The notes under the pieces: generated by a model
What the model saw: only the letters and a program-made list of their open reading frames with translations
Told to the model about the DNA's origin: nothing
Databases searched by the model: none
In this document: positions 12,677-51,941 of the stretch, in pieces
Numbering within the stretch: position 1 is the stretch's first letter
Layout of the letters: each line of letters begins with the position of its first letter
Position numbers and translations under genes: made by a program
From: Zelonia costaricensis
Lineage: Eukaryota; Euglenozoa; Kinetoplastea; Trypanosomatida; Trypanosomatidae
Length of the DNA stretch: 64,000 nt
Assembly: GCA_030849075.1 (NCBI GenBank)
Contig: JASAOO010003470.1
Location: 1 to 64,000, forward strand
Direction of reading: 5' to 3'

Positions 12677-13396
12677 CTACAGCGTGATGTTCTGCAGGTC
12701 GTCGTACTCGTCGTGAGCGACCTCGCGCCCGCGTTTGCGTGACTCCCTCAGCAGCTGCTGCTCCCGTTCCTTGGCGAACTCGCTGCGGATGTCCTCGCGC
12801 TGCAGGAGCTGCCGCACCTGCTCCTCCTCGCTCACGCCCATCCGCACCCGCTGCGTTGCACGCGCCACGACGCTGACCGGCTCCTGTTGGGCCTCGCGCT
12901 TCTTGCGCTCCTTCACCCCACCGCGCCTCTGCCGCGCCGCCTCGCCGCGAACGTACACGAAGGGCACAGCGAGGGCCTGCGTGTCGTCTGCCGTCACCTT
13001 GCCCTCCGCCAGCAGCCGCGCGAAGGCAGCCTGGAGCTTCTCCCGTTCCCCATCGCCGAGTGCGCCGTCGGGGGCCGCGCCAGAGAGGTCCGCCTTCGCC
13101 ACCAGCGCACACTTGCGCCCGAGCTGCGCCGCGCCCTTCTGCGCTGCCTTCACATCCGTCGTGTCCACCTCGTCGGCACCACCGAAGGCGTCGCAGAGCA
13201 GCGGCGTCTTGAGCAGCAGGCCCGCGTGCAGCTGCCTGGCGCGGGCGCTGCTGGCGATGGTGCCGAAGTCCTCCGTGCCGAGCAGGCGCAGCGCCGCGTC
13301 GCTGAGCTTGCATAGCGCCAGCAGGCCGCCCGCCTTGGCCACCATCTCCGCCGCCAGCTCCGGCCCAAGAAGGGCATCGAGGTTAGGCGTCGCCAT
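12677..13396 (-). CDS. PRP31: PRP31-like protein starting at the Nop domain
   Basis: The 239-residue protein opens with PNLDALLGPELAAEMVAKAG and continues GLLALCKLSDAALRLLG. This aligns with the Nop domain of the U4/U6-U5 tri-snRNP protein PRP31 (in human PRPF31, PNLSIIIG..TAAKIMGVAGGL..L). Residues about 155-195 (RQRRGGVKERKKREAQ, then RATQRVRMGVSEEEQ) match the conserved PRP31 C-terminal block KKRGGRRYRKMKER...NRMSFGEIEE. PRP31 binds the 15.5K-U4 snRNA complex and bridges to the U5 proteins. The usual family length is near 500, and the N-terminal NOSIC/coiled-coil half is absent here. An in-frame TGA at 13406-13408, four codons upstream of the ATG, rules out a simple N-terminal extension, and no other frame in the spacer encodes the missing part. 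It may be a naturally short trypanosomatid form, a split gene or a truncated copy. Confidence 0.7.
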   Translation of the reverse strand: MATPNLDALLGPELAAEMVAKAGGLLALCKLSDAALRLLGTEDFGTIASSARARQLHAGLLLKTPLLCDAFGGADEVDTTDVKAAQKGAAQLGRKCALVAKADLSGAAPDGALGDGEREKLQAAFARLLAEGKVTADDTQALAVPFVYVRGEAARQRRGGVKERKKREAQQEPVSVVARATQRVRMGVSEEEQVRQLLQREDIRSEFAKEREQQLLRESRKRGREVAHDEYDDLQNITL

Positions 13397-33161: not shown

Positions 33162-36100
33162 CTACGCGCCGGCGGTGGGAAGCGGCAGGCCCTTTGCCTT
33201 GAGCTGCGACTCGAGCTGCTCCACAATCGCACGCAGGCGCCCCATTTCCGCCTGCTGCACGCTGATCTCGCGCGCGTACTCCTCGTTGTAGACGGAGACA
33301 CCGCTCGGGTCGGTGGGTCGGATGACGCCGGCCTTGGCCGCCAGCGTCCGCGCCTCCTTGCGGAGGTCGTTGATCTCGCGAATGAGGATGACGTTCTCGG
33401 TGGTGATGCGCTGCTTCTCCATGCGGTGGTTCTCCTCGTCCTTGGCGATCTTCTTCTTGAGGCTGGCGAGGTTGCCCTCGAGGTGGTCGCGCTCGCGGTG
33501 GTAGTCCTTCACCTCATCCGTGGCCGTCCGCGCCGACGTGAACTGCCGCTGGTTCGCGACGCGGCGGCCGTCGGTGTAGTTCTCGTAGAGAGCCATTGCC
33601 ATCGCCTTGAGCCGCTTCTTGTCGTGGGAGGTCTGGTACTCGTTGAACGTGTCGCCAATCTCGGCCCACATCCGCCCCTGGAAGGACTTGGCCTCCGCGA
33701 TGCGGCCCGCGATGCCGTCCAGCTCCTTCTGCTGCGCCGCGCGCTTCTGCCGCAGGCTCTTGATCTGCAGGACGAGGTGCTCGTTGCTCGACTCGTACTG
33801 GCCCGTCTCCGCCTCCATGTGCTCCAGCTTCACCTTGGAGGCGCTGATTTCGTTGTCCTTGGGCTCGATCTGTGTCTTGAGCTCCTTGCGCTTGTACTCC
33901 AGCACGAACTTGAACTTCTCCAGCTCCTGGTTCTTGGTGCGCAGGTCTTGGATGCGGCGGTCCTTCTCGGCAATCGTCTCACCACGCTCACGCAGCTCGT
34001 TCGTCAGGGCCTCGATGTCGCGCTTGGCCGACTCGATATGCGACTCAAGCACCGTCTGCTGCCGCAGCTTCTCCGTGACATCGGCCATCTTGGCCTCCAG
34101 CTCGGCCCGGTTCAGGTTCTCCTTGGAGATGAGGGCGTTGTTGGCCGACTGCAGCGCCGCCGCCTCCTCCTCCTGCTCGCGGAAGCGCTTCTCGTAGTAC
34201 TCCTTCGCCTTGACGATCTCCGTGTCGTTGTCCTCTTCGATCATCGCGCACATCGCCTCCGTCTCCGTGTCGTTGCGCTCCTTCTCCGCGGCGACACGGT
34301 GCTGCTCCTCGTCCAGCGCGTTGAACTCCTTCTGCTGCCGCTGCTTGTCGATGTGGTGCTGCGCGTCGGCCTCGGCCTGCAGCGCAGCCTTCTCGCGCGT
34401 GTGCTTGGCGTCCTCCTCGGCGATGAGGTGGCGCAGCTGGTCGGCGCGGCTGGACAGCGACTCGATCTTGCAGCGGTAGTCCTCCTCCGTCTGCTGCAGC
34501 GTGTGGGCCGACTTCTGCTCCATGTCGGCCATGAACTCGGTGAAGCGGATGGCCTGCTCGCCCTTCGCCGCATCCAGCGTCGCAATCTCAGCCCGCTGCT
34601 TCTTCATCTCCGCGCGGTAGTCGCGGTCCAGCTGAGCGATCTGCTCCTCGTGCTGCCGCTCCTTCTTGAGCAGCTGCTGCTGCATCCGCTGCCGCAGGTC
34701 CTTCACCTGCGTCGTCAGGTTGCGCAGCGTCTGCATCGACGCGTCGAGGTCGCGCCGGTCCACGAGCAGCTCTGTCGTGTACTCGAGCTGCTTCACCGTG
34801 CCCCGGTGCGGGGCGACGATGTCCCAGAAGACGACCATGCCGTCGTCGCCCACCGTGATCAGCATGCCCTCGTCGTACGAGATGGCGATGTCGGCGACGA
34901 CGCCGATGTGCGTGACGTGCGTCTCGATCGTGATGTCGCGCTGCGCCGTCACGACGCGCGGGTTGCCGTGGTGGCCGTCAGCGCCGCCACCGCCGACGAC
35001 GCTACCCGCCGCGCCGGCGCCCGCCCCGCCCCCGCCCCCGGCCGCGCGGTCCACCGCCTGCCCGTTCAGCTTCTCGCCGAGGTACGTGTTGTAGACGCGC
35101 ACCGTGCCGTCCTCGCAGCCGCCGAAGAGAAGCTTGAGCGACTGGCTGACGAGCATGCACCGCATCGACGCGTCCGGCAGGTTGTACTCGACCGTCTGCA
35201 GCATCGTGGACCGGTCAATCTGTCGCATCTTGCGGTCGTTGCCGGCGGCCCACACGGTGAGCACGTCGGCGGCTGCGCAGTGGTACGTGACCGCCTTGGT
35301 GACATTGTCGCGCACCTTGTGGAAGTCGCACAAGCTGAACTCGAAGACGGCGCCGTCGGCGCCGGAGGAGACGAGGCGGGTGTCATCCGGTGGCACGAAG
35401 TTGAGGCTGCGCACCTTGCTGTTGTGCCCGCGCAGGTGGCCCAGCAACTCGCACGTGTACGTGTAGTGCACGTGGATGATGGTGGAGTTGGCGACGGCGA
35501 AGTACTGGCCGCCGTGGCTGAAGCTGCACGCCGCGCAGTTGCGGATGGTGAGCCGCTTGAACTCGCACAGGTCCTTCTCGTATATGTTGAAGACGCGTAG
35601 GGAGTCGGTGAAGCCGATGATCATGTGCAGCCCGGACGGGTGCATCGCCATGCTCACAATCTCCTCGTGGAACTGCTTGCGCATCTCCACGACGTTGGTG
35701 ATGCTGTTCCACAGGAAGACGCTGCCGTCACGGCCGGCGGTCGCCACGAGGGGGCGCTGCACGCACGTGTCGACGGCGACGACGCCGCTGGTGTGGAAGG
35801 GCTGGCCGACGGGCTGGAAGACCATGTCCTCCGCCTTGGTGAAGTCCGCGTTGGGGACGTTGAGGGCGTAGATCTGCTTGGTGCTCGTCAAGAACGCCAG
35901 CAGCTCCTCCGCCGGCGGCGGCGTAAAGGTGAAGGCCCGGATGACGGGCACATCCGCCCCGATCTTCGACGCGGTCGTCAGATCGGTGGCGGTGCCGTAG
36001 CTGCCGTCCGCGGTGAAGCGGAAGGTGCGCACCTTGCGGTACATCTCCTTGCTGCGAGTGCGCTCAAAGAGCGTGATGAGGCCCATGTCGCCGCCGCACA

Positions 36101-36896
36101 CGAACCCCTTCGTGTACGACGCCAGCGCGGTGATGGCGATGCCGTCCGACGGGGACAGCGGGAGGGGGTGCTTGTACTGCTGCTGCTCGAAGAGGAGGAG
36201 ATCGCCGTTCTCGGTCGAGACGACGAGGCGGTGCTCCTCCTCGATCAGCCACGTGTGGGCCAGGTAGTGCACCTCCGGCGCCTCCACACCACCGCCAGCC
36301 GGGAAGAGGTGGCCCTCGGAGTAGGAGAAGAACTTGACGCAGCCGCGCCCCGTCACGCACACCAGCGCCGGGTCGTACGAGGAGATAGAACACTGCTTGA
36401 GGTGGCGCTGATCCTTGGCCACCATCGTGTTCTCGAGCGCCGAGTCGTGGGCCAGCATCTTGTGCTTCTCCACGTCCCAGTAGACCAGCTTCCACTCCGG
36501 GAAGCCGCCGAGGGCGACGAGGTAGCGGCCGTCCTGCGAGAAAGACAGCGACACGAACTCGTTGGAGCCGACCTCGGAGAGATGCAGCACCGACCGCCGC
36601 CGGATGCGGGGCGAGGCGGCCGGGTCGAAGAGGTAGATGACGATGTACGGCGTCTTGCCCGACTCAGCGACGGCGAGCAGCCTCCGGCTCGGGGCGAGGG
36701 CCATGGCCGTCACCCCCTCGCAGCCTGGCGTGCACGGCACCAGCTCCTGCGTGCCCTGCTGCGTGTCCAGCAGCACGAGGCTCTCCCCGGCTACCCAGAC
36801 GATGAAGTCCTCATCGAGGTAGTGCACGCCGTCCTTGACGTCCTCGCACACGCCAAACACCATCCGGCGCTCTATCATGCGCGGGTTCTGCGCCAT
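33162..36896 (-). CDS. CFAP57: Cilia- and flagella-associated protein 57 (WDR65)
   Basis: The 1244-residue protein starts at the ATG at 36896, where homology begins (MIERRMVFGVCEDVKDGVHY, like the HIFGLRSHV..NI.YFDE opening of WDR65). The first 700 residues form two WD40 propellers; one clear blade is GHNSKVRSLNFVPPDDTRLV followed by SSGADGAVFEF. A Gly-rich insert (around 580-610) sits in the second propeller. Residues about 705-1230 are a nearly continuous coiled coil (for example LRNLTTQVKDLRQRMQQQ). Domain order and length match CFAP57, an axonemal protein of inner dynein arm g/d and the regulatory complex. It should localise to the flagellum. Confidence 0.92.
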   Translation of the reverse strand: MAQNPRMIERRMVFGVCEDVKDGVHYLDEDFIVWVAGESLVLLDTQQGTQELVPCTPGCEGVTAMALAPSRRLLAVAESGKTPYIVIYLFDPAASPRIRRRSVLHLSEVGSNEFVSLSFSQDGRYLVALGGFPEWKLVYWDVEKHKMLAHDSALENTMVAKDQRHLKQCSISSYDPALVCVTGRGCVKFFSYSEGHLFPAGGGVEAPEVHYLAHTWLIEEEHRLVVSTENGDLLLFEQQQYKHPLPLSPSDGIAITALASYTKGFVCGGDMGLITLFERTRSKEMYRKVRTFRFTADGSYGTATDLTTASKIGADVPVIRAFTFTPPPAEELLAFLTSTKQIYALNVPNADFTKAEDMVFQPVGQPFHTSGVVAVDTCVQRPLVATAGRDGSVFLWNSITNVVEMRKQFHEEIVSMAMHPSGLHMIIGFTDSLRVFNIYEKDLCEFKRLTIRNCAACSFSHGGQYFAVANSTIIHVHYTYTCELLGHLRGHNSKVRSLNFVPPDDTRLVSSGADGAVFEFSLCDFHKVRDNVTKAVTYHCAAADVLTVWAAGNDRKMRQIDRSTMLQTVEYNLPDASMRCMLVSQSLKLLFGGCEDGTVRVYNTYLGEKLNGQAVDRAAGGGGGAGAGAAGSVVGGGGADGHHGNPRVVTAQRDITIETHVTHIGVVADIAISYDEGMLITVGDDGMVVFWDIVAPHRGTVKQLEYTTELLVDRRDLDASMQTLRNLTTQVKDLRQRMQQQLLKKERQHEEQIAQLDRDYRAEMKKQRAEIATLDAAKGEQAIRFTEFMADMEQKSAHTLQQTEEDYRCKIESLSSRADQLRHLIAEEDAKHTREKAALQAEADAQHHIDKQRQQKEFNALDEEQHRVAAEKERNDTETEAMCAMIEEDNDTEIVKAKEYYEKRFREQEEEAAALQSANNALISKENLNRAELEAKMADVTEKLRQQTVLESHIESAKRDIEALTNELRERGETIAEKDRRIQDLRTKNQELEKFKFVLEYKRKELKTQIEPKDNEISASKVKLEHMEAETGQYESSNEHLVLQIKSLRQKRAAQQKELDGIAGRIAEAKSFQGRMWAEIGDTFNEYQTSHDKKRLKAMAMALYENYTDGRRVANQRQFTSARTATDEVKDYHRERDHLEGNLASLKKKIAKDEENHRMEKQRITTENVILIREINDLRKEARTLAAKAGVIRPTDPSGVSVYNEEYAREISVQQAEMGRLRAIVEQLESQLKAKGLPLPTAGA

Positions 36897-36913
36897 GGCT
36901 GACCTCCGTGGCG

Positions 36914-36936
36914 CTGGTACAAGAGGGAAAAGAGAA
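36914..36936 (-). promoter_or_regulatory. Candidate trans-splice acceptor for CFAP57
   Basis: On the minus strand a pyrimidine tract (36936-36920) precedes AG at 36915-36914, 18 bases upstream of the ATG. It supports the chosen start and a very short 5' UTR. Confidence 0.45.
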
Positions 36937-38386
36937 CTGTGGTTATTGGCGCGTGTACGTGTGTGTGTGTTTAGGAGGTGTGGGTGTGTGGGGAGGGGAG
37001 GGGCAACAGGCACACGGCAGCGCTGGGGCTCTGCAGGGGGGCGGCGCGTGCAGCAGTGGCGGCGGTAGCGGCCAGAAACGAAGCAGGAGGAGGGCGAGCC
37101 CCGGCAAGCAAATGTAGGAACGACAAGAAGCACCGGCAATGGCGATGACGGGAGCGGCTCCGTCTGCTGTGAAGCTGAGCTCGCCGTTGAGCGCGTCAGA
37201 CAAGCGGCGCGCAGAAGGAGTCGTGGTGTGCGAGGTGAGGAGAACGGGGGGGACGGAGGGGAGGGAAGTGTAGCGGCAACGTGCACCGTCGCGATCACGA
37301 GCCACGGCGGGGAGGGCCGCGCGCTGCTATAGAGCGGTTGCACGCGAGGGGGGAAGGGGAGTGCGAGGCACGGCAGAACGAAGGGGCGGCACCGCACTCG
37401 CACACAAGAATAACGTTCAACGCGACGCCTCGTTCGTTCTGGCGCTCGTTGCCCTCGATGCAGCGCTTCCTCGGCGCAGCCCTGGCCGAGACAGACAGGG
37501 CGATCCCGGCGCGCGTTTGCCGGCTCGGCTCCCCACAGCACGCTCGCGAAGATGTGGAGCAGTAGCAGCTCGCTCTGCTTCCATGTGCGTGGCATGTATA
37601 CAGGTGCGTGTGTGCATTGCGCCGGGTTTCGCTTTCTATGACGACGGCGGCCCACAGGGCGTCTACGATTCAACCAAGAACGAAAAGGATGAAGGACGTG
37701 GCAACCAGCGCGCACCCCCACGCGTGCACAGACACGCCCTTGCCCACATCAGCCCGCACACTCGGACGACGCTCCTCCACGCAGGTACGACCCAGCGCCA
37801 GGCTGCGTGGAAATGGCGTTCGACACGGGGATGGGATACGAGCGAGACGGGCGGAGAACAACCCGATGGTGGTGTCGGAGGAAGAGCGCCGTGCAGCTCC
37901 GCAGCAGGACGTGGGAAGGGGTGTGGCACATGAGGTCGCCTGAACAGGAGCCCCCTGACGCTCCTCCCGCCGCGCCGCGTTTTACTGACGCGCGCTCGGG
38001 GAAAGGGGCGGAGGGGGGGGGGCGCGAGCGCAGAGCGCGCAAGTTCTATGGAGGAGGGGGAGGGGGGAGGGGGAGGGGGGGGGGCAAAGAGGCACACCTC
38101 CCCACAGGTCCACCCACACACACACACACACGCGAAAGAAGGAAGGGATGACCACACGAGCATGGGCATAGTCCGGAGCCGCCGCCCCAGCCGGCACGAT
38201 GACGGGGGAGGGGGAGGCACGCGGCAGTGCAGCCACGTCTACTCACGGAGCTCCGACCACGAGACGCGAGGGAGGATGGACACGGACACGGGGGGGGGAG
38301 AGGGCTGACCAACGCGCCGTCCAGCTTAGCGCACACGCGAGGGCTCGCCGTGAGAACGACTTGTGGAGAGCTCCTATGCCACACAT

Positions 38387-38479: not shown

Positions 38480-41400
38480 TCAGATGGCGGAGAAGAGGGC
38501 GTCGATATTCACGAAGAGGTGGTCGATGCGCTTGTAGATCGTGTCCGCCGCGGCGTTGAGCGGGTCGACCGGGTCCGCCACCTCCTGCACCGCGGGGTCA
38601 GCCGCCTCGGCCAGCGTGTACAGCCGCCGGTCCACACCGAGGCAGCGGCGGGCCTGGTAGTAGTGCGCATCCTTCACCCGCACGGCGCACCCCGGGGCGT
38701 GCGGGATGTCGAAGAGGGCGCGGTAGTAGGTGAACTGCGTCCGCACGGCCCGGACCGCCGCGGCGGTGCCGCCGCACTGGTAGAACTGCCGGATAATGCC
38801 GTAGCACGTCTGCGTGAAGCAGTTGGCGACGTAGTCGACCGGCAGCGACCTGCGGCAGCTGACGCACACGTATAGGTCAAAGCGGTCCTGCTGCCGTGCG
38901 GGGTCGGCCAGCACCTCGGCCACGCGGGTGTGCGGGTTGATCGGGGTTATCAGGCGGCAGTGCGTGCACGCCACCTGCAGCGGCAGCGCCGTCGGGAAGC
39001 ACTCCTCGAGGTTGCGGCTCTGGAAGAGGGAGCTGTGCGAAAAGTCGTTCATCGCGTCTGCCGCCTCCTCCTCCGGCTTGGCGCCGGCGTTGTACGCGAT
39101 GCCCATCGCCTCGCTCAGGTGCGCGTTCGAGAAGCCCTGGATGTGCTCGCACAGCCGCATCACTGGTGGGTAGATCTGGGCCGACAGGTACCACTCGGCG
39201 TCGATGTGCAGCTGGTTGTTCTGGCGCACCTCCTCGACGTGGTAGGCCTTGTCGCTCAGCCGGTCGCCGGTGCAGATGACGTACGGGATGAGGTCGCCGA
39301 CACGCACCAGCTCCTTGCGCTGCTTCATGCGCAGTGCCACCGTGGCGTGCGGGAAGCTGTTACCGCGGTACGCCTCCGGCTCCTTGGTCAGGCTCTTCGA
39401 GATGACGAAGTCGTCGAGGGTGTAGCGGCCGCCACGCACCTGTTCGGCGACGTCGCGCATGTAGTTCATGACGTAGTCCAGGATGTCCTCGCTGCCCTCA
39501 GCGTTCAGCACGCGGCTCAGCACCGAGTCGCTCACCCGCTTCGAGAGCGGGCACCAGTCGCGCCGCACCATGTCCAGCCCCTTCACCTCCTTCTTGTACG
39601 TCTTGCCCTCCTCCTGCCAGTCCGTCACTGTCAGGGCCGCGTACTTCTTCTTCTTGAGCAGCAGAATGGCTCGGAAGACGCCGTCGATGTCGATCTCGAG
39701 GCTCTGGTAGCGCTTGTTGATCTTCGCCTTGAGGTCGAGACCGAGGTCGCGCACGGCGCGGATGTCGTTCTTGATGCCCGTCTGAATCATGACCGAGTCG
39801 GTGTCACCGTAGATGACGCGCAGCGACGGGTTCAGCTGCGGGATGAGGTCGACGGTGCTTTGCAGCGCCAGGCGGCCCTGTCGCGTCACGAGCTCGGCGA
39901 GCGGCTGTGCGTGGAAGCGGGAGAACTCGAAGCCGAGGCAGCCGTACATGCTGTTCGCCGTCAGCTTCAGTGCCTTCTGCCGGATCTCGAGCAGCGCCAG
40001 GCTGTTCGCGTCCCGCTCAGACTTCATCAGCCGCTTCACCTCACGGCGGCTGTCCACGAGGCTCTTGATCACCTTGGGCAGCACGCACTTGTGCAGGCAC
40101 GGCGCGGAGAGGCCCGCCGCGGCGCAGGCGGCACAGACCAGCTTCTCTGGCGGCGGCACATCGACTTCGCGGCCCCCCTCCCGGTCCACCGTGGTGAAGC
40201 AGATGTTGAACTCCTGGATCAGCGACGGGTACAGGGAGTTGAAGTCGAGCAGGAGGATGTAGTCGGAGTAGAGGCCGCACTTGGGGTCGAGCACCATGCC
40301 GCCCTGGTACTTGGCCTTGCGCTTGCCTTCCTCCTCCTCCTCCTCGTCACGGCCGCGCTTGAAGTCCTGCACGTAGCGGTCCGGCGTGATGAACTTGAGG
40401 TCGTGAAAGGTGTGCAGCAGCAGGTACTCGATGCGCTCCGAGCGGGCCCCGAAGAGGGTGCGGCTCCACAGATTGCCGGCAATCGTCGCCAGTCGCTTCG
40501 TCAGCCGAATCACGTCGAGGTGCGAGACGACCGCCGTCGACAGCACGGCGCAATTGCACACCTGCAGCAGCACGTCGTAGATGTCGCACGACGTCGCTAG
40601 CGTTGCCGGCGTCAGCACCGATGTACCGGGCTCGAAGTTGTTGCTGCCCTTGGTGATGCCCTGCAGCTGCATCTGCTCCGCCAGGGACAGCAGCTTGTAG
40701 TTCACCGTCTTGTAGTGCTCGCGCGCCAGGGAGTAGGAGTCGACGACGAGCCGGCCAATGCACGTCTCCTTTGCCTGGTTGACGTTCGTCGCCGCCCCCT
40801 GCAAGCGGGGCAGTCGCTTCAAATCGAGGCGGCCAATGGTCGACCAGCCGGCGACGTTCAGCTCCTGGTAGCGGCGGAGAAGCGTGTCAAGGGTGAAGCC
40901 GAGAAAGTTGTGGCCGAGCATCATGTCCGCGTCGACCTCACCCAGCTGCTGGGCGAGCCACTCCAGCAGCGCCCGCTCGTTCGCGAAGCGCCGCACACCC
41001 GGCAGCCCTTTGGCGTTGCAGTAGCTCTCCAAGTCGATTGGCAGCGTCGTGTCCATGGTGGCCGGCCGGACGCCGGTGAGGATCCTGTCCGGGATGTAGC
41101 GCACCGTGCTCTCGATGTTGACGTCCTTGTAGACGGCGACCGAGGCGACGAGGATCTCGTTGCACGCGCCCCTGCTGTCCAGCTGCGCGTGCAGCTGGAT
41201 GCTGGCGAGCGTGAAGGGTGGAACGGCGAGCTTCGCGTCTTCGACGCGGATGCTCTTGGGCGACTCCACGCTGAACTCGAGCGCGCAGTGCGAAATGTGG
41301 CTTGTGGAGGCGGCCAGGCCGCTGATGCGCAGGTAGCTGGGGCCCTTGAGCTTGCGCTTGATGAGGAAGAGCTCGAGCAGCGACGACGTGGCGCCCATGA

Positions 41401-42526
41401 CGATCTGAATGTGGCGGAACGGCCCCCGCGTGTTGAGCGGGGGGTAGCGTCCTGGGTAGCGCAGCTTCGCCCACAGCGTCTTCTCATGCGGGATGCCAGG
41501 CTCCTCGAAGGCGTAGTAGCGCTCGACAAACTTGATGCGACGCTGCTCGATGCCCTGGTTGCGGCAGATGTCGTTGATCTCCTTGACCACGTCCTGCTGC
41601 GAGGAGCCGTCCTTGGGCAATAGAAACATACTGCGGTACATGTTGCGCACGCGCACGCAGCACGATGGATACGTGGTGCGCCCGTTCCGCTCCACCGCCA
41701 TTTTGCCAAACAGAAAAAGCGAGCCCGGGTCGACGGACAGCGTGTAGGGTTGCTCACGCGCGTCGAACCAGTAGAAGAGGCCTTCCGACATCTCCTCCGA
41801 CTTGCACGACACCGTTGGGGCGGCTGTCGCGGTCGTGGTCGCGGTGTCGGCCTGCGGCGTGAGCTTAGCGGCGAGCTCGATGGCCTGCCTCGGCTTTTCC
41901 TCGCTACGGTAGCCGGTGCCCTCGCTAGGCGCGCTCGGCTTGGGGCGCGTTGGCTTCGCCGTGCGGTCGCCCTCGAACTTGAGCGACTCGTCCTCCAGCG
42001 CGATGACGGTCGCCGTCTTCAACTCCTCCGCTGGCTCACGCTTCGGCTTGGCGCTGCTGGGAGCGGGCGCCGCCTCCGCCTTCGCCAAGCGCGCCAGGAA
42101 CTCGTCTGCCGTCAGCGCCCTCTCCTCGCCGTCGTCATCGTCATCCTCGTCCGAGCCGCTCCGGGCCTGCAAGAAGTGTGACACGTCAATGTCGCCTGTC
42201 ACATCCACCTCCTCCTCCTCCACGTGGTACCGCTTCAGCAGGCGCTCCATGTCCATGTCACTCATCGACTGCGGCAGCGTCTGCTGCTTCGACTTTGGTG
42301 GCGGCTTCGCCGCAGGGGTCGCTTTCTTCAGCTTCTTGCTCGCCCTCTTCGCAGACGGCAGTTGCGGAAGGTCAAGGTCGCCGGAAGCGGGCACGACCTC
42401 GTCGTCGTCCGACTGGAACACCTCCTCTCGGAGCGACCGCCATTGGTCCTCCTGCGTCTCGCCGAAGTTTGGGGCATCCGCCCGGTGCGGATGGCGGCGC
42501 GAGGTTGCCTCGTCCGGCGCCGACAT
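38480..42526 (-). CDS. POLA1: DNA polymerase alpha catalytic subunit
   Basis: The 1348-residue family B polymerase has the motifs in order: region II DFNSLYPSLIQEFNICFTTV near 760-779, region III KLTANSMYGCLGF near 854-866 and region I YGDTDSVMI near 906-914, the last with both catalytic Asp. The continuation EFNICFTTV is specific for alpha. The exonuclease-like domain lacks an obvious intact DIE triad, as expected for alpha. Residues 1-230 are acidic and disordered. Two C-terminal Cys clusters (CTHC near 1187, CVSC near 1221, then C..C near 1236-1251) bind zinc and, in other eukaryotes, the B subunit. It extends primers made by primase at origins and lagging strands in the nucleus. Length fits the Leishmania protein. 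Confidence 0.97.
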   Translation of the reverse strand: MSAPDEATSRRHPHRADAPNFGETQEDQWRSLREEVFQSDDDEVVPASGDLDLPQLPSAKRASKKLKKATPAAKPPPKSKQQTLPQSMSDMDMERLLKRYHVEEEEVDVTGDIDVSHFLQARSGSDEDDDDDGEERALTADEFLARLAKAEAAPAPSSAKPKREPAEELKTATVIALEDESLKFEGDRTAKPTRPKPSAPSEGTGYRSEEKPRQAIELAAKLTPQADTATTTATAAPTVSCKSEEMSEGLFYWFDAREQPYTLSVDPGSLFLFGKMAVERNGRTTYPSCCVRVRNMYRSMFLLPKDGSSQQDVVKEINDICRNQGIEQRRIKFVERYYAFEEPGIPHEKTLWAKLRYPGRYPPLNTRGPFRHIQIVMGATSSLLELFLIKRKLKGPSYLRISGLAASTSHISHCALEFSVESPKSIRVEDAKLAVPPFTLASIQLHAQLDSRGACNEILVASVAVYKDVNIESTVRYIPDRILTGVRPATMDTTLPIDLESYCNAKGLPGVRRFANERALLEWLAQQLGEVDADMMLGHNFLGFTLDTLLRRYQELNVAGWSTIGRLDLKRLPRLQGAATNVNQAKETCIGRLVVDSYSLAREHYKTVNYKLLSLAEQMQLQGITKGSNNFEPGTSVLTPATLATSCDIYDVLLQVCNCAVLSTAVVSHLDVIRLTKRLATIAGNLWSRTLFGARSERIEYLLLHTFHDLKFITPDRYVQDFKRGRDEEEEEEGKRKAKYQGGMVLDPKCGLYSDYILLLDFNSLYPSLIQEFNICFTTVDREGGREVDVPPPEKLVCAACAAAGLSAPCLHKCVLPKVIKSLVDSRREVKRLMKSERDANSLALLEIRQKALKLTANSMYGCLGFEFSRFHAQPLAELVTRQGRLALQSTVDLIPQLNPSLRVIYGDTDSVMIQTGIKNDIRAVRDLGLDLKAKINKRYQSLEIDIDGVFRAILLLKKKKYAALTVTDWQEEGKTYKKEVKGLDMVRRDWCPLSKRVSDSVLSRVLNAEGSEDILDYVMNYMRDVAEQVRGGRYTLDDFVISKSLTKEPEAYRGNSFPHATVALRMKQRKELVRVGDLIPYVICTGDRLSDKAYHVEEVRQNNQLHIDAEWYLSAQIYPPVMRLCEHIQGFSNAHLSEAMGIAYNAGAKPEEEAADAMNDFSHSSLFQSRNLEECFPTALPLQVACTHCRLITPINPHTRVAEVLADPARQQDRFDLYVCVSCRRSLPVDYVANCFTQTCYGIIRQFYQCGGTAAAVRAVRTQFTYYRALFDIPHAPGCAVRVKDAHYYQARRCLGVDRRLYTLAEAADPAVQEVADPVDPLNAAADTIYKRIDHLFVNIDALFSAI

Positions 42527-43402: not shown

Positions 43403-44698
43403 TCACGACTCCTCCTTGCACACAGTGCCGAGGCGCTGTGCGTTGCGCACGGAGAAGGCCAGTTGGCGTGCAAGATTCACCAGTGTGACCATCTCCGACC
43501 GGTCAAGCGTGATGGCGTCATTTTCAGGGTTCATGATGATCTTCATGGCGACAGCGATGCCCTTGGTCTCGAGCTTGCCCCAGATGCGGCACTTCTCGCA
43601 CGTGACGCAGTCCATGAGCCGGGTTACGTTGAGCATGACAGCCTTGAACTGAGGAATCAGCGAGCGGCCCTTCTCTGACTCCAGGAAGGAGCTCTCGTCG
43701 AACGTTGGAGTGCACAGGAGTCGTGCGTCAAAGAGCTCGTTGATGTTCTTGTGGAGCTCGAGGTCTGTCGGGGTTGGCGTGCCGCCGGCGCCGGTGTTGA
43801 AGATGCTGACATCGCTCGTGAAGAACGGCTTCGCCTTGGCCAGGGCCCGCAACGTGAACTGGTACAGTATATACAGATTGCCCACGAAGTCCGGGAACGG
43901 GGCAACGCGCTTGTTGTACATCTCGCAGTTCGGGAAGAAGGAGATGCTCGGATTGTTGTAGATGCCGGTGGAGTGCTGCGGGGAGCGCAGTTCAGGGTCC
44001 TTGTAGTAGCTTGTGCAGACGTGCATGTTAATGGACATGTGCAGCCCGCTGAGAAGCGTCCGCAGGATAGACAGCTCCTGGCAGGTGCCTTCTTCGCCGG
44101 AGGACGACAGGCAGTTTTCGGCGTAGATGGCGCGCCAGACCTGGGTCGCGAGGGGACCGGAGTAGCCGGTGTTGCCCTCCGGGTTGGAGGCGAGGTCGAC
44201 GTACTCGGCCCCGTCATCCGTCTTGAGCCAGTCACCCCAGTCGTCGAGGTTGCCTGGCTTGGCGATCGACTGCTTGACGCTGCCGTCCGGCGTGTTCAAG
44301 TCACTCATGTCCTCGCTGGCGCGCAGCGCCTCAGGAATGGAGTTCTCGTCGCACTTGCACACATCGCACGTGTTCTCGGCACTGGTGCACAGCAGGCTCA
44401 CGGCCCAGTAGGGGCAGGCTTTTGCGCTGTTCACCTTGAAGTAGCGAAAGTACGGCGAGACGGTGATGCGGTTCAGCACGTCAAGAAGCGACGTCGTCCC
44501 TTCGTCGATTTGCGCCGGTGACGAGTGGCAGTAGCCGTAGTCCAGCTTTGTTGTGTCGAGGACAATGCGCGGCTTTGAATCAACGGTGGCGGCAGGCTCA
44601 TCAAGCGGCCGCGAAAAAGTTGGTGCGTCGCAGGTGAAGAGCAGGAAGGCGACCAGGAACGCGCCAAAGGCGAACTTGAGGCTCGTCTCAACGCTCAT
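43403..44698 (-). CDS. ERO1: Endoplasmic reticulum oxidoreductin 1
   Basis: The 431-residue protein starts at the ATG at 44698. An N-terminal signal anchor covers about 8-23 (KFAFGAFLVAFLLF). A Cys-rich shuttle region lies near 108-116 (CDVCKCDENSIP), followed by EYVDLASNPEGNTGYSGP, diagnostic for ERO1. The inner active site CVTCEKCRIWGKLE lies near 363-376, like CVGCFKCRLWGKLQ of human ERO1. ERO1 is the FAD enzyme that reoxidises protein disulfide isomerase with oxygen in the ER lumen. The shuttle cysteines are spaced more tightly (CxxCxC) than in the human enzyme. It is the second gene of the minus-strand unit, and a 40-residue protein with a matching signal anchor is encoded just upstream. 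Confidence 0.95.
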   Translation of the reverse strand: MSVETSLKFAFGAFLVAFLLFTCDAPTFSRPLDEPAATVDSKPRIVLDTTKLDYGYCHSSPAQIDEGTTSLLDVLNRITVSPYFRYFKVNSAKACPYWAVSLLCTSAENTCDVCKCDENSIPEALRASEDMSDLNTPDGSVKQSIAKPGNLDDWGDWLKTDDGAEYVDLASNPEGNTGYSGPLATQVWRAIYAENCLSSSGEEGTCQELSILRTLLSGLHMSINMHVCTSYYKDPELRSPQHSTGIYNNPSISFFPNCEMYNKRVAPFPDFVGNLYILYQFTLRALAKAKPFFTSDVSIFNTGAGGTPTPTDLELHKNINELFDARLLCTPTFDESSFLESEKGRSLIPQFKAVMLNVTRLMDCVTCEKCRIWGKLETKGIAVAMKIIMNPENDAITLDRSEMVTLVNLARQLAFSVRNAQRLGTVCKEES

Positions 44699-45367
44699 TG
44701 TGAAGGCGTTGGTGCGCTTGTGCTTGTTCTCGCGGATGTGCTGACGCGCGCGGAGACCACCTGTGTAAGTGGGGTAAAAGTAATGTGAACTTTGGTTGTC
44801 AAACGAGCAGCAGTCAAAAGCAAGTGAAGGCGGAAGCACAGATCACGAGGCTGCGCCAAGTAGTGCAGCCGCATCGGCTCACACACACTGAAGAGGAGCA
44901 CTCAAAACGCCCAACCATCAAAAGTGCTCACGAGTGAGCTTTCCTTGCATGGTGAGGCCGCAACGCTGCCCTTGGCGGTGCCGCAGGGATGCCGTCAGAA
45001 AGGCGTCCGCGCCAACACGCTGCACATGGCAGGTAGTGGCGCCGAGGGGAAGAAGGCAGGCGCTCTGCAGGTAGCCACCACACGAGGCGCGCCTTGCCTT
45101 CTCCCCGACTCTCAGTTCTCTTTCTGCATTGACCGTCACAAACACAAAAACCCACTTATGTGTCGTTGAAATCCGCTTACACAGGGGACCACTTGTCACT
45201 TCGCCGCCAGGAGCTCGCTGAAGCTGGCCGGAGCACCGGTTGCGCTGAAGTGGCCCCTCCAACTCTGTTCTTCAGCCGTGGAAACACGGCAGCAGTGGTG
45301 GGGAATGTACCCCCAGCCCCTGCAGACTTCTGCTATGGGAGGAGTTAGAGGGCGTAGGCGCTGTCTC
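44699..45367. other. Spacer between ERO1 and the 40-residue gene
   Basis: No further gene seen. No additional ERO1-like coding sequence was found in the minus-strand frames, so the upstream small gene is not simply the head of a decayed full ERO1 copy still visible here. Confidence 0.55.
44761..44786 (-). promoter_or_regulatory. Candidate trans-splice acceptor for ERO1
   Basis: On the minus strand a pyrimidine-rich stretch (about 44786-44767) precedes AG at 44762-44761, some 62 bases upstream of the ERO1 ATG. It supports the internal ATG at 44698 over the open frame further upstream. Confidence 0.4.
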
Positions 45368-45490
45368 TTACATGAACTTGCCGGCGGCCTTGCCGGCCTT
45401 GATCGACATCTTCGGTGGCTCGTACGTAGCCACAAAGAACGCCACCAGGAAGGCGGCGAAGAGGCACTTGAGGGCGATCTCAATATCCAT
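45368..45490 (-). CDS. 40-residue single-span membrane protein resembling the ERO1 signal anchor
   Basis: The frame runs from ATG at 45490 to TAA at 45370-45368 and encodes 40 residues. It opens MDIEIALKCLFAAFLVAFFV and ends with a basic Lys/Gly tail (AGKAAGKFM). Residues about 9-22 form one membrane helix. Aligned without gaps, 13 of the first 26 residues are identical to ERO1, including FLVAF. The first 78 bases share 50 identities with ERO1, so this could be a duplicated signal anchor. A good trans-splice acceptor lies 20 bases upstream, and this is the first gene of the minus-strand unit. Function unknown; probably an ER or other endomembrane microprotein. A chance ORF is possible but the acceptor and the similarity argue against it. 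Confidence 0.6.
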   Translation of the reverse strand: MDIEIALKCLFAAFLVAFFVATYEPPKMSIKAGKAAGKFM

Positions 45491-45509
45491 CTTGACGAGT
45501 GATGTGGAG

Positions 45510-45566
45510 CTTGGGCAGCAAGGCCAGAGAGGCGCAAAGGAAGGGAAGGGAGAGTGGTAAGAAGGC
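45510..45566 (-). promoter_or_regulatory. Candidate trans-splice acceptor for the 40-residue gene
   Basis: On the minus strand a long pyrimidine-rich tract (about 45566-45525) is followed by AG at 45511-45510, giving a 5' leader of about 20 bases before the ATG at 45490. Confidence 0.5.
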
Positions 45567-46317
45567 GATAGATGTTGCGGGTGTGCGTGTGCGAGCGGGA
45601 GAGGCTGTGAGAAGAGATTACCGTTTTTTTGTGTTTTTCAAGAGGAGGCGAAAGAGGGAGAGGCAGTGGGAAGGAGGAGTGAAAGGGCCGCGCATGCGCA
45701 TATGAGCGGGGTGCTCGTTGCAGGGCAGCGAAGCCGCACGCACTTGCAGCGTGGACAACAGCGAGGCAGGTGGGGAAAGAAGCAGTGGACCTGAAAACAC
45801 ACGAGGCCGACCCGTTGTTCCCGGGGCATCACCGCAAGGGGCGTAGCGAAAGCGTCACCTGTTCACCATCTTGATTGCCTGTTGGACTTACTAGCGCCGG
45901 ACTGCTAGGAAGGTGGCCACCCGCTTCCACGTTTCTCCTCCCTCTGCTCCTCCCCCCCTCACGGCGCCCCTTCTCGTCTCTTCAGCGCAAGCCTCTCTTT
46001 ATTCCCCTCCCCCCCCCTCCCTTCAGCCACAGCGTGCCCCCCCCTCCACCACTTTCCGCTCTGACGTGACGTCACCGGCGTTTGACCCTGTCACCCAGCC
46101 GCCACACCACATCGTCAGCATCTTCAAAAGCAACGCCGGAGTAATTTGTCCGCTGCGCGCACTCGAAAAACTGGGCAACTCGCAAACAAAAGCGACCTTT
46201 GTTGGCTTCGATGAGCCAGTGAAAGAAGCTGGGGATGCAGCTGCTCCCAGGTGAATCGTGCTGCTGGACGCGCCATCCTTCCTTGCTCTCGGCAACTTTT
46301 CGGGTACCCCCCTATCC

Positions 46318-46349
46318 ACGCTTTCCTTTTTCCGCATTCTTTTCTCAAG
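46318..46349 (+). promoter_or_regulatory. Candidate trans-splice acceptor for the 111-residue gene
   Basis: A pyrimidine tract (about 46318-46345) runs into AG at 46348-46349, about 31 bases before the ATG at 46381. A second candidate is the C-rich tract at 46003-46024 with AG at 46025-46026. Confidence 0.45.
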
Positions 46350-46380
46350 TCTCGCGGCGGTGCCCACAAGCCGCCAGCTG

Positions 46381-46716
46381 ATGACTTTCAAGAACTACTT
46401 CACGGCAGCGGCGCGCAGGGCCCCGGCTCGGCTCAGAGGCCGCTCCGACGGCCGCCTCACTGGTACACAGTTTAACCAGCGAGTCCGCAAGTCGTTCCAC
46501 GAGCGCACCATGCTAGACGAGCTGAACAACGGCTTTGCGCGGCACAAGCACAATGCCTTCGACTCAAGCAGGGTGCACAACGAGCTCCGCGCGGCGCGAA
46601 TCGGCTCCAACTACGCGCAGCTACCCTCACGGAAGGTGTTGCAGCAAATAAAAGCAGACAAGCGGGAGCAGCGACGGCTTTCCTCACCTAGTCGGCGGTC
46701 CCCACCGTTTGGCTGA
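46381..46716 (+). CDS. Small basic protein of unknown function
   Basis: The 111-residue protein begins at the ATG at 46381; the frame upstream contains no ATG. It is strongly basic and predicted helical (for example RGRSDGRLTGTQFNQRVRKS and VLQQIKADKREQRR). The N-terminus FKNYFTAAARRAPARLRGR could act as a mitochondrial presequence. I do not recognise a family; a mitochondrial ribosomal or RNA-binding role is a guess from charge alone. It is the first gene of the plus-strand unit. Confidence 0.65.
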   Translation: MTFKNYFTAAARRAPARLRGRSDGRLTGTQFNQRVRKSFHERTMLDELNNGFARHKHNAFDSSRVHNELRAARIGSNYAQLPSRKVLQQIKADKREQRRLSSPSRRSPPFG

Positions 46717-47420: not shown

Positions 47421-50400
47421 ATGGCGACGGAGGCAGTGAAGCGGCAGATTCTCCTGGCTGTGGATGCGTTGACAATTCCACAAAACCGGGTCCCCTCGTC
47501 CACCAGCATTGGGGAAGCCTGCGCTGCAGCCAAGCTGCTCCGCAACAGGCTACTCCGCGAGCACACTCGTGTGACGGAGCAAATCGAGGCGCTCCGCGAG
47601 CGCCAACTGTACGACGAGGTGAGCGATGACGACGTCAATTACGACGACGACGACGCAGAGGTGCGCCTAGCCGGTGGCGACGTCAGCCGGTCCGAATTTG
47701 TGCTCTTGTGTGAAATGATGGTGGCAGAAAAGCTGGTGATTCCGCTTCTGCTGGCACACGGCATGAATTTCGGCGATACGCTCCTCCCACAACTGCTGAA
47801 GTTGCTGGCGGTGTTGTTACTGCCGGTTCCGCGGTACTCTGCGAACGAAGTCTTGCAGAAAGACCTGCTACAGAAAATCAAAACGCGCTGTGGCACGGAC
47901 GAGTTCTTTGCGTTGCTCGTCCAATGTGTGGCGCCGATCGCGGAGAAGAGGACGTCCGGCGACCTGCAGCGCGACGACGTTGTTATCCTCGAAATCGTTC
48001 TTACTTTAATTGCGCACTTGCTCGACGGCAGCCCCCCCGAGACGGAGAGGATTATCGGCGCTTTCTGCCGCAACCACGGTGTCGAGCTTCTCCTCGTCGT
48101 GATCAACCAAAACTACTCGCGGGTGCAGAGCACGAGCGCGGTCCAACCTGCCGCGGCACCAGATCACACTGAAAATCACACCGACGACACGCAGCCTGGC
48201 GAGCAGGCAGCCGCAATCGGCTCTAGTGTGCCTCTAGCTGAAGAGGAAGTCGACCTCGAGTCCGACGGCGTGGAGAGCGAAATTGATCTGGGAGGCGACG
48301 ATGACAGCTCCAGCACCGCGTCGGAGGCCCCGAACGCCATGACCGCCGCCCTCGACCGCGAATTTCAGCAGCAGGTCCACTCTCTCCTGGAGAGTGACGA
48401 GCAGCTGTGGAAATGGAACTGCCTGGCGCTGGCGTCTATTTCGAGCGTCATTTGGTGCGTGCCGGCTGAGGAGCTCGCCCAGCTCACCCTTCTTGGGCAC
48501 ACAAGCGACGCGACGCCGGACCGGCTGCTGTCGGCGCTGCGCAACGCACAGCAATTCCGCGACTGCAAAAAGGCCAGTGACAGGTGGCGCTTTGTGGCGC
48601 GCAGCCGAAACGGCGCTGTTACGTCCAACGGAATTCTTGTTCGCGGGTCTGCCGGCGGCACGACCGGCGGACATGCAATCGGAACCGTGTACTCGTTGCT
48701 TGGCTCGCGCCGGAAGGACCCGCTGGAGGCGATGAAGGATGTCGACTTGCGCAAGCGTGGCCGTTTCGTGAAAGGCATGTTTCAAGGTGCCACGGCGCAG
48801 TGCAACCTACCGCTGCCGACAAAGATACAGCTCTCGCAGCAAAATAGCTCGTTTTTGTGCTTCGGCTTCGAGCCGCTCAGCTCGATGACCTTTGCCAAAC
48901 TGCAGCAAATCACCGCCGGAGTCGAGCGCGCGACAAGGGAGCACAAGGAGGTGCTGGCGGGGTACAAGGGCTCTGGTGAAACGGTCGAGGTGACGTCGCC
49001 GCTCGACACCGCCACGTACCAGAATTTGCGCTGCGTTCTGCATTACATGACGATCTGCCGGTGCACGCTTCGTTTTGTTCGAATTCTGGCGGAGCAGCTG
49101 AAATCGGAGCAGCAGTCGTTTCTCGCCATGTTTCCGCAGCACTGGCAGAGTGTCTCGGCAATTATCTCGCTCGACTACCTCGAGCTCGGGTTTTCTGTGC
49201 TGCGCGCCTTTCTCGACTGCAAGGACATTCGCCGCCGCGAGGACGTTACCAACGTGGTGGGCTACCTGGCGGAGGTTCTCCTTCTGCTGAACATGCTGCT
49301 GCAGGGCGACATCGCCGCCGACCCCGCCGTCGAGGTCGCTGCTCACGCCTTGGCGTCCTCGGTCTTGTACAAGGAAGACAACATCAAGGTAGTCTTTGGC
49401 CTGCTGTCCGAGTATTCCAGCCGAGTGATTGCGGCTCGTAAAGCGCAGGTGTTCACGCTTTTTACGTTTGCTGTGTTTCAGTTGATGGAGAAGTGCAGCT
49501 ACAAGGGGAATTTGCTGCTTCCGAAGCGCGCACGGCGGCAGAAGGAGAGTGCGGTTGTTGAGGCAGGGGAGGCAGCAGACATGGGCGGCGTCGGTCTCGG
49601 CGACGGGGACGACAACGAGAGCGTCGATTCCGCGGCGCTGGACAATGTGCAGGATGAGATGCTACGTGATATGGCCGACATGATCGACGACAACGGCAGC
49701 GACGAAGAGGGCGAGGCGGAAGCCGTGGCGCAGGAAAAGGAGGCGCCTGACGGCGTCGAATTGTTTGAAACAAAATTCGAGCCGCTGCTCGGTGATGCTT
49801 CGGTCGACGGCGGCAACGCTGCTGCCTCGGAGCGGGCCGTTTCGGAAGGGCGGCCGCCCTCCATCGCCTCCAGCGGCCGCACAGCGTTGTCGACGCTCAG
49901 CTCAGAGCGGGAGGTGGCGGTCGGTGGTTTTTTCCAGCGCCTTGCGTCGCCCAAGAACATCAGCCTCGTCTACTCAGCCCTACGCCACTGGCGCATCAAC
50001 GACGTCGATGTCAACGTTGCCGTAACCTTTTTGATGGACAGTCTCGTGCGCAACAACTGCGAGAGCGTCTTCTTCAATGTTGCTTTTCTCTTGGTCATGC
50101 GGGAGGTCCTCATCGGCGGTGAGAAGACGCACGCCCCGCTGTACGCCGTCTGCGACCGTATTGTCTACAGCTTTTTCAACCCACCGCTGGCCAAGGCGCA
50201 GGACGCACGCGCAGCGGCGACGTTCACCAGCGAGGCGGAGCGCGGCATGCTCAGTGGTGCGCAGTCGTACCTGGGCTTTGAGGTGGCGCTGCGCTGCTCA
50301 CGCGCCCTGTTCAACTTCAGCACCATGGACTACACATACCTAGAGGAAAAGGGAATGGCGCATTTAATGAGCTACACGGCAATTCCACTTCCCGGCGACG

Positions 50401-50894
50401 GGGCTGACGCTGGCGTTGACGAGTACGACGAGGCACTGGCGGCGGTGTCGGCTGCTTCCGACTCCCCTGCCGGCAAGCCGCGGCGCCATCGCCGCAGTGC
50501 CGCAGCGGCGTCGCACGTGGCACTTTCAGAAGAAGAGGAGAACTCTGCGCCTGAGTCGGAGGCCGAGGACGACCGTGCGCCGCTGTCACACAGCGAAAGC
50601 CCCGCCGCGGAGGGGTCTGGCAAGGACAAGCCGAAGCGCGCGAAGCGGCCTCGCACGCGCCGTCCGGGCGAAGACAAGAAGAAGAAGCGGCGCCAGCGAA
50701 AGGAAGCGGAGGCAACTATTGCAGACGCTGCCAACGCTGGCGGCGTGCAGCAGGACGAGGTGGCTTGGAGCGGCGGGTGCGTTGACGACGCTACCGACTC
50801 CGCTGCGGCGGCGGCCATGGCTTTGGCTGTTGCCGCGACCGCTCCGTTTCCGGGTACAATGGAGGAGACGCTTGTTGTGGAAGACGCCCAGTAG
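47421..50894 (+). CDS. TIMELESS/Tof1/Swi1-family replication fork protein
   Basis: The 1157-residue protein starts at the ATG at 47421. The N-terminal region has the TIMELESS pattern: SRSEFVLLCEMMVAEKLVIP, then LPQLLKLLAVLLLPVP..., then LLQKIKTRCGTDEFFALLV and VVILEIVLTLIAHLLDG. Acidic inserts lie near 65-80 and 275-300. The second conserved part, about 855-915 (NISLVYSALRHWRINDVDV), corresponds to the TIMELESS C-terminal helices. A Lys/Arg-rich stretch near 1070-1095 should be a nuclear signal. In other eukaryotes this protein pairs with Tipin/Csm3 in the fork protection complex. The partner is not in the window. Base composition is less GC-rich than in most other genes here. Confidence 0.8.
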   Translation: MATEAVKRQILLAVDALTIPQNRVPSSTSIGEACAAAKLLRNRLLREHTRVTEQIEALRERQLYDEVSDDDVNYDDDDAEVRLAGGDVSRSEFVLLCEMMVAEKLVIPLLLAHGMNFGDTLLPQLLKLLAVLLLPVPRYSANEVLQKDLLQKIKTRCGTDEFFALLVQCVAPIAEKRTSGDLQRDDVVILEIVLTLIAHLLDGSPPETERIIGAFCRNHGVELLLVVINQNYSRVQSTSAVQPAAAPDHTENHTDDTQPGEQAAAIGSSVPLAEEEVDLESDGVESEIDLGGDDDSSSTASEAPNAMTAALDREFQQQVHSLLESDEQLWKWNCLALASISSVIWCVPAEELAQLTLLGHTSDATPDRLLSALRNAQQFRDCKKASDRWRFVARSRNGAVTSNGILVRGSAGGTTGGHAIGTVYSLLGSRRKDPLEAMKDVDLRKRGRFVKGMFQGATAQCNLPLPTKIQLSQQNSSFLCFGFEPLSSMTFAKLQQITAGVERATREHKEVLAGYKGSGETVEVTSPLDTATYQNLRCVLHYMTICRCTLRFVRILAEQLKSEQQSFLAMFPQHWQSVSAIISLDYLELGFSVLRAFLDCKDIRRREDVTNVVGYLAEVLLLLNMLLQGDIAADPAVEVAAHALASSVLYKEDNIKVVFGLLSEYSSRVIAARKAQVFTLFTFAVFQLMEKCSYKGNLLLPKRARRQKESAVVEAGEAADMGGVGLGDGDDNESVDSAALDNVQDEMLRDMADMIDDNGSDEEGEAEAVAQEKEAPDGVELFETKFEPLLGDASVDGGNAAASERAVSEGRPPSIASSGRTALSTLSSEREVAVGGFFQRLASPKNISLVYSALRHWRINDVDVNVAVTFLMDSLVRNNCESVFFNVAFLLVMREVLIGGEKTHAPLYAVCDRIVYSFFNPPLAKAQDARAAATFTSEAERGMLSGAQSYLGFEVALRCSRALFNFSTMDYTYLEEKGMAHLMSYTAIPLPGDGADAGVDEYDEALAAVSAASDSPAGKPRRHRRSAAAASHVALSEEEENSAPESEAEDDRAPLSHSESPAAEGSGKDKPKRAKRPRTRRPGEDKKKKRRQRKEAEATIADAANAGGVQQDEVAWSGGCVDDATDSAAAAAMALAVAATAPFPGTMEETLVVEDAQ

Positions 50895-51599: not shown

Positions 51600-51941
51600 A
51601 TGTCCCAGAAGACGCAGGAGATACTGACGCAGGAGGAGATCAACCTCCGCGTCCGCCAAGGCCTGCAGAAACGCAAGAAGTGCGCCCTCTGCACGCAGAC
51701 GTTCTACGTCAATGAGCTGCCAGGCGCCATCACGCACAAATCCATCCTAGAGCTCCGCCAGAAGTGGGGCATGGATGTGCGCCGTGGCGACCACATGCCG
51801 CCGCCGTCGCAGCTGTACAAACGGGAGGAGATTTGCATCTTTTGCATGCAGTTCTTCGACACGACTGGCTCGATGCAGACGCAGCAGAAGCTCCTCGCCT
51901 CCACGCGCGACGGCATCTCGCCGGCGTTGACGCTACGGTAA
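51600..51941 (+). CDS. Small protein with two CxxC pairs (zinc-binding candidate)
   Basis: The 113-residue protein has CALC at residues 28-31 and CIFC at 79-82, each followed by an aromatic run (TQTFY; MQFFD). This symmetric pattern suggests one zinc site built from two knuckles. His46 and His65 lie between. The N-terminal 27 residues are helical and charged. I do not recognise the family with certainty; the even composition suggests a conserved, expressed protein. No membrane segment or signal peptide. Confidence 0.7.
   Translation: MSQKTQEILTQEEINLRVRQGLQKRKKCALCTQTFYVNELPGAITHKSILELRQKWGMDVRRGDHMPPPSQLYKREEICIFCMQFFDTTGSMQTQQKLLASTRDGISPALTLR

Follow-up and report, generated by a model that had tools for sequence, protein, structure and literature searches.

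The 40-codon frame found on the minus strand ahead of the ERO1 gene is an unannotated partial paralogue of ERO1, the enzyme that makes disulfide bonds. Its origin by duplication of about 29 codons from the 5' end of ERO1 is well supported by its homology to the ERO1 anchors of other species. The explanation preferred here, which is held with somewhat more confidence than doubt, is that the frame is a genuine trans-spliced gene missed by annotation, consisting of the copied anchor and a separate lysine-rich tail of 11 residues, and that its product is a single-span microprotein of the endoplasmic reticulum (ER). The frame lies in a window of 64,000 bases (the whole stretch of DNA analysed) on a contig of 70,730 bases, in a genome of 28.7 Mb in 755 contigs; the GC content is 66%. 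The features of the locus are:

45368..45490, minus strand: probable gene of 40 codons, paralogous to the N-terminal anchor of ERO1, sequence MDIEIALKCLFAAFLVAFFVATYEPPKMSIKAGKAAGKFM (homology, codon use)
45404..45490, minus strand: codons 1-29, homologous to the anchor of ERO1, with a hydrophobic core at about residues 9-22 (BLASTP, genome and profile searches)
45368..45403, minus strand: codons 30-40 and the stop, a lysine/glycine-rich tail without visible ERO1 counterpart (11 of 11 codons G/C-ending)
45510..45511, minus strand: predicted spliced-leader acceptor AG with a 19-base leader (from the sequence alone)
45515..45567, minus strand: pyrimidine-rich tract preceding the acceptor, limits approximate (seen in the sequence)
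45491..46380: divergent strand switch (orientation of the frames taken as genes)
44699..45367, minus strand: spacer of 669 bases between the small gene and ERO1, with five ATGs but no convincing trace of the ERO1 body
44761..44762, minus strand: candidate acceptor AG for the ERO1 mRNA with a 62-base leader (likewise read only from the bases)
44612..44698, minus strand: anchor of the window's ERO1, codons 1-29, with F in place of the family's C9 and D in place of its E24 (alignment)
43403..44698, minus strand: ERO1, 431 residues, the parent gene (Pfam PF04137, E 2.5e-89; orthologues)
38480..42526, minus strand: DNA polymerase (PF00136)

Translation of the minus strand from 45490 to 45368 gave 40 residues followed by a stop, so the complete frame of the preliminary description is correct. 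The frame's own pyrimidine tract and acceptor were also found as described, with the AG at 45511-45510 after the tract; the leader is short as claimed, but its exact value is 19 and not about 20 bases. The start context is CAAG-ATG-G. The hydrophobic stretch covers approximately 14 residues. The frame contains a single cysteine and had no Pfam match, the oxidase domain included. It is not an ERO1 enzyme, as the PF04137 oxidase domain with its active-site cysteines is absent.

DNA polymerase, ERO1 and the small frame follow one another on the minus strand, and the frames 46381-46716 and 47421-50894 are located on the plus strand. Judging by these orientations, the minus-strand unit begins, as far as likely coding frames are concerned, with the small frame. 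The plus-strand frame 47421-50894, the first long gene past the strand switch, had a weak TIMELESS match of 15.8 bits (Pfam cut-off 25). A large WD40 protein (PF00400, E 1.2e-20) is encoded at 33162-37595 on the minus strand, with 86.7 bits for the EML-like beta-propeller PF23414 (cut-off 90). Besides the acceptor listed for ERO1, five further AGs are present 18-91 bases ahead of its ATG. The body of the window's ERO1 is ordinary and was 79-86% identical to 12 foreign ERO1s (P0008 left out). In a tree of the ERO1 body it grouped with Novymonas and then with Leishmania, with modest support of 67 and 69, so the host was taken to be a leishmaniine trypanosomatid.

The gapless alignment first described between the small frame and ERO1 (start 44698), with 13 identities in the first 26 residues and 50 identical bases of 78, was reproduced. 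BLASTP against the window's ERO1 gave 14 identities in 29 residues and an E value of 2e-7 for this single comparison. Over the 29 codons, 20, 20 and 15 of 29 bases were identical at codon positions 1, 2 and 3. The pair is weak when the whole genome is searched (28.7 Mb, six frames), with E values of 0.105 and 0.115, two first-look candidates being scored each time; in the same searches, with these two candidates scored, the frame and ERO1 were each the other's sole second match. Unrelated signal anchors that match the peptide equally well, a concern raised at the outset, were not seen, and beyond ERO1 nothing was found genome-wide at E<=10 for the two first-look candidates scored.

A search of the protein database listed 51 relatives of ERO1 at E<=1e-20. 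An anchor profile was built from the N-termini of 13 leishmaniine ERO1s, P0005-P0017. Omitted from it were P0004, which is 97% identical to the window's ERO1, and 37 more distant proteins, P0018-P0054, whose starts showed no visible alignment in this region; P0018 was included in the anchor tree. Searched against 3737 open frames, each 25 residues or longer, from 200,730 bases, the profile of foreign anchors gave 53.8 bits for the small frame (E 1.6e-15) and 29.4 bits for the window's ERO1. The next-best frame reached just 6.1 bits, which argues against many unrelated anchors matching. Three of the 13 foreign anchors were used as genome queries, and the small frame was the top match for all three: E 1.3e-7 for P0011, picked as the visibly closest (ERO1 7.5e-4), 5.9e-5 for P0013 (ERO1 not reported) and 4.6e-4 for P0006 of Novymonas (ERO1 0.0173). 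The best scores of shuffled controls were 10.4 bits in 5000 full shuffles and 17.7 bits in 5000 shuffles preserving the hydrophobic pattern, against 56.6 bits observed. This significant homology makes the small frame an ERO1 anchor paralogue. The duplication of the anchor is well supported by the genome searches with foreign anchors, the profile and the shuffles, more strongly than was stated in the preliminary description.

All 13 foreign anchors were closer to the small frame (12-19 of 29 residues) than to the window's ERO1 (10-17 of 29), with margins of 1-6 residues; the margin was a single residue in three of the 13 rows, and the 13 anchors are mutually related. Eight columns, namely M1, E4, K8, C9, L15, F18, T22 and E24, hold the same residue in 12 or all 13 of the foreign anchors. 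The small frame has kept all eight and the window's ERO1 six. The two residues lost by ERO1, C9 and E24, are both present in the small frame; 12 of the 13 foreign anchors have C at position 9, and all 13 have E at position 24. The ERO1 of Porcisia likewise has F at position 9, so the loss of C9 in the window's ERO1 need not signal a hand-over of function.

Codon use was scored against 17 frames taken as genes. The small frame scored 0.70 bits per codon and ranked second among the 134 intergenic ATG frames with a length of 25 residues or more. The first and third places are taken by apparent genes (239 and 113 residues), and the fourth frame scored 0.138. When the 17 reference frames were divided into 348 pieces of 40 codons, 77% of the pieces scored below the small frame. 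The score is noisy at this length, because the first 40 codons of ERO1 itself scored 0.02. Third positions were G or C in 35 of the 40 codons (P 0.0005 against intergenic composition) and in all 11 codons of the tail (P 0.006). The claim of a real coding frame is well supported by the homology and the gene-like codon use. The top-ranking 239-residue frame, at 12677-13396 on the minus strand, matched the Nop/snoRNA-binding domain PF01798 with an E value of 9.8e-12, and is perhaps a Prp31-like protein. The 113-residue frame at 51600-51941 on the plus strand contains two CxxC pairs; no Pfam match was found for it at E<=0.01.

The same 40 residues, tail included, were found in the protein database on a contig of 7897 bases, which is not the contig of the window. 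P0004 (source lgn), which differs from the window's ERO1 at 11 of 431 residues, is likewise listed with a contig of 7897 bases. We infer that the identical 40-residue protein and P0004 share one contig of a close relative, in which the frame was predicted independently. Compared with this relative, none of the 40 residues of the small frame has changed, versus two changes in the first 40 residues of ERO1. At ERO1's average rate approximately one change is expected in 40 residues and the probability of none is 0.36, so the complete identity is compatible with constraint but does not prove it. For it to favour constraint, silent divergence would have to be much higher.

No further copy was found in the protein database at E<=10, where only the frame itself was returned, either with the frame as the sole query (1 candidate) or with a profile of 16 rows, made up of the frame and 15 ERO1 N-termini (307 candidates). 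The gene may therefore be restricted to one narrow lineage. Frames of 40 residues are frequently left out of annotation, so this silence of the database is weak evidence of absence. Pfam held no family for the small frame, and a search of solved structures gave two matches with a best E value of 0.21, both to designed proteins. Viral contigs queried with ERO1, and not with the small frame, gave one pattern match and no confirmed relative. The literature was surveyed by titles and the openings of abstracts, and nothing was found there on small genes ahead of ERO1 or on copies of its anchor.

The more distant ERO1 P0018 has a start partly like the leishmaniine anchor (AVFLMASYEP), so the anchor is taken as ERO1's own and the small frame as the copy. 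In the best tree of 29 anchor sites, the small frame was placed beside lgn11 and then the window's ERO1, with support values of 36 and 62, on a branch of about 0.41 changes per site. The AU test rejected none of three placements of the small frame (p 0.70, 0.43 and 0.32), so the tree gives no age for the duplication. Among the matches listed for the spacer and the strand switch there was no convincing second ERO1 body, and neither spacer nor flanks contained convincing ERO1 DNA. The strongest was an inverted match of 26 bases, about 85% identical, between 46114-46139 in the strand switch and 43785-43810 in the ERO1 coding sequence (E 0.001), which is probably due to chance. Shared 5' flanks of the frame and ERO1 were not significant, as 59 of 1000 and 125 of 2000 shuffles were equal or better. 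A reading of the frame as a cis-spliced first exon of ERO1 was set aside, since the G/C-ending codons reach the frame's own stop; moreover, cis-spliced introns are very rare in trypanosomatids.

The main rival to the preferred explanation is that ERO1 begins with a signal peptide that is cleaved off, in which case the copy would export a lysine-rich luminal or secreted peptide of about 18 residues and no anchor would exist. A hydrophobic core of just 14 residues or so is typical of signal peptides, and a cleavage site could have its -3 and -1 residues at position 20, which is V, F or A, and at position 22, which is T in all 13 foreign anchors. T is uncommon at -1, however, and a signal peptide has no need of the conserved E4 and K8-C9. 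This explanation is considered rather unlikely. It is improbable that an incomplete tandem duplication left the frame as a decaying relic, without function and open merely by chance. In favour of a relic, the frame is known from a single genome and, apparently, a single close relative, is just a fragment of its parent and has no convincing remains of the ERO1 body beside it. Yet a relic would hardly keep eight of eight conserved anchor positions despite a divergence of about 0.41 changes per site, nor have G/C-ending codons that extend through a tail not visibly derived from ERO1 (11 of 11, P 0.006), and the database copy is identical, tail included.

The frame could also belong to a long 5' leader of the ERO1 mRNA and tune ERO1 translation as an upstream reading frame, with a peptide sequence that matters little. 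It is on the same strand and immediately upstream of ERO1, with no called gene in between, and upstream frames with footprints are reported in L. donovani: the available text of a Ribo-seq study describes 70 added genes and 304 putative upstream frames in 264 transcripts (PMC10454037). Against this, candidate acceptor AGs for ERO1 lie only 18-91 bases ahead of its ATG, the 669-base spacer contains five further ATGs, and a frame indifferent to its peptide is not expected to retain the ERO1 anchor sequence and gene-like codons. We regard this role as very unlikely. Chance or convergence between two hydrophobic starts is disfavoured and hardly credible; the direct pair is weak genome-wide (E about 0.1), but foreign anchors reached E 1.3e-7 and the profile 1.6e-15, 5000 pattern-keeping shuffles peaked at 17.7 bits against 56.6, and the agreement includes the polar positions E4, K8, T22 and E24.

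According to the preferred explanation of a trans-spliced gene for an ER microprotein, the mRNA would receive its own spliced leader, and the product would enter the ER by its ERO1-type signal sequence with the hydrophobic stretch of about 14 residues and remain in the membrane as a single-span protein. The product is probably an ER-inserted microprotein. The net charge of residues 23-40 is +3 in the small frame, -3 in the window's ERO1 and +1 in the two foreign ERO1s computed. A positively charged flank tends to be cytosolic (the positive-inside rule). The lysine-rich tail may face the cytosol, opposite the enzyme domain of ERO1, with the topology turned round.

Once in the membrane, the microprotein would bind whatever meets the ERO1 anchor on its conserved side (E4/K8-C9/T22/E24). 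The most likely role, although a doubtful one, would be that of a partner or competitor of ERO1 acting through this side. Such a role would account for C9 and E24 being kept in the copy and lost from ERO1 of the same genome, a pattern which suggests that the copy, and not ERO1, may now serve what selected these residues. The evidence for the functional step is this retention of residues, and the C9/E24 pattern is the sole pointer to a functional link. Membrane residence of the product and a location shared with ERO1 are putative, as is any regulation of ERO1. A further and unlikely possibility is that a second job of the anchor has moved in trans, so that the duplicated anchor bears the E4/K8-C9/T22/E24 surface and the ERO1 anchor, freed as a mere targeting signal, has lost C9 and E24. 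If true, ERO1 would act in two parts, the enzyme and a membrane subunit of 40 residues.

In T. brucei, according to the available text of PMC8630539, growth depends on ERO1, and silencing of ERO1 stops growth and sets off spliced-leader silencing. As a stand-alone copy of the ERO1 anchor, the small gene is a candidate, open to testing, for a membrane partner or regulator of ERO1, and it illustrates how a targeting sequence can turn into a gene. A gene of only 40 codons could be detected by querying the raw genome with N-termini from other species. Compared with the leishmaniine ERO1 family (PF04137), the first 29 residues are homologous to the N-terminal signal/anchor without gaps and all eight conserved residues are kept; unlike ERO1, the small frame lacks the oxidase domain, has one cysteine and ends at 40 residues with its own lysine-rich tail.

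The microProteins (miPs or siPEPs) are described, in the available text of PMC8302217 and PMC3794426, as small single-domain proteins that heterodimerise with larger targets and act in a dominant-negative manner. The small frame resembles those described there in being one segment (29 of 40 residues) related to a larger protein of the same genome, ERO1. Unlike the examples given in these texts, which are mostly transcription factors, the shared segment here serves membrane targeting, and any binding to the parent is putative; the concept fits the small frame in form, not yet in mechanism. In T. brucei, the available text of PMC3942054 reports 42 high-confidence unannotated small proteins of 49-219 residues, drawn partly by conservation in kinetoplastids; seven small proteins were essential there, several of them with a predicted membrane span. 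Like these, the small frame escaped annotation; unlike the set as reported there, it is shorter, can be traced to a parent gene with a name and is not known to occur widely. If it is confined to its lineage, it would show a gene being born by partial duplication, at an early stage.
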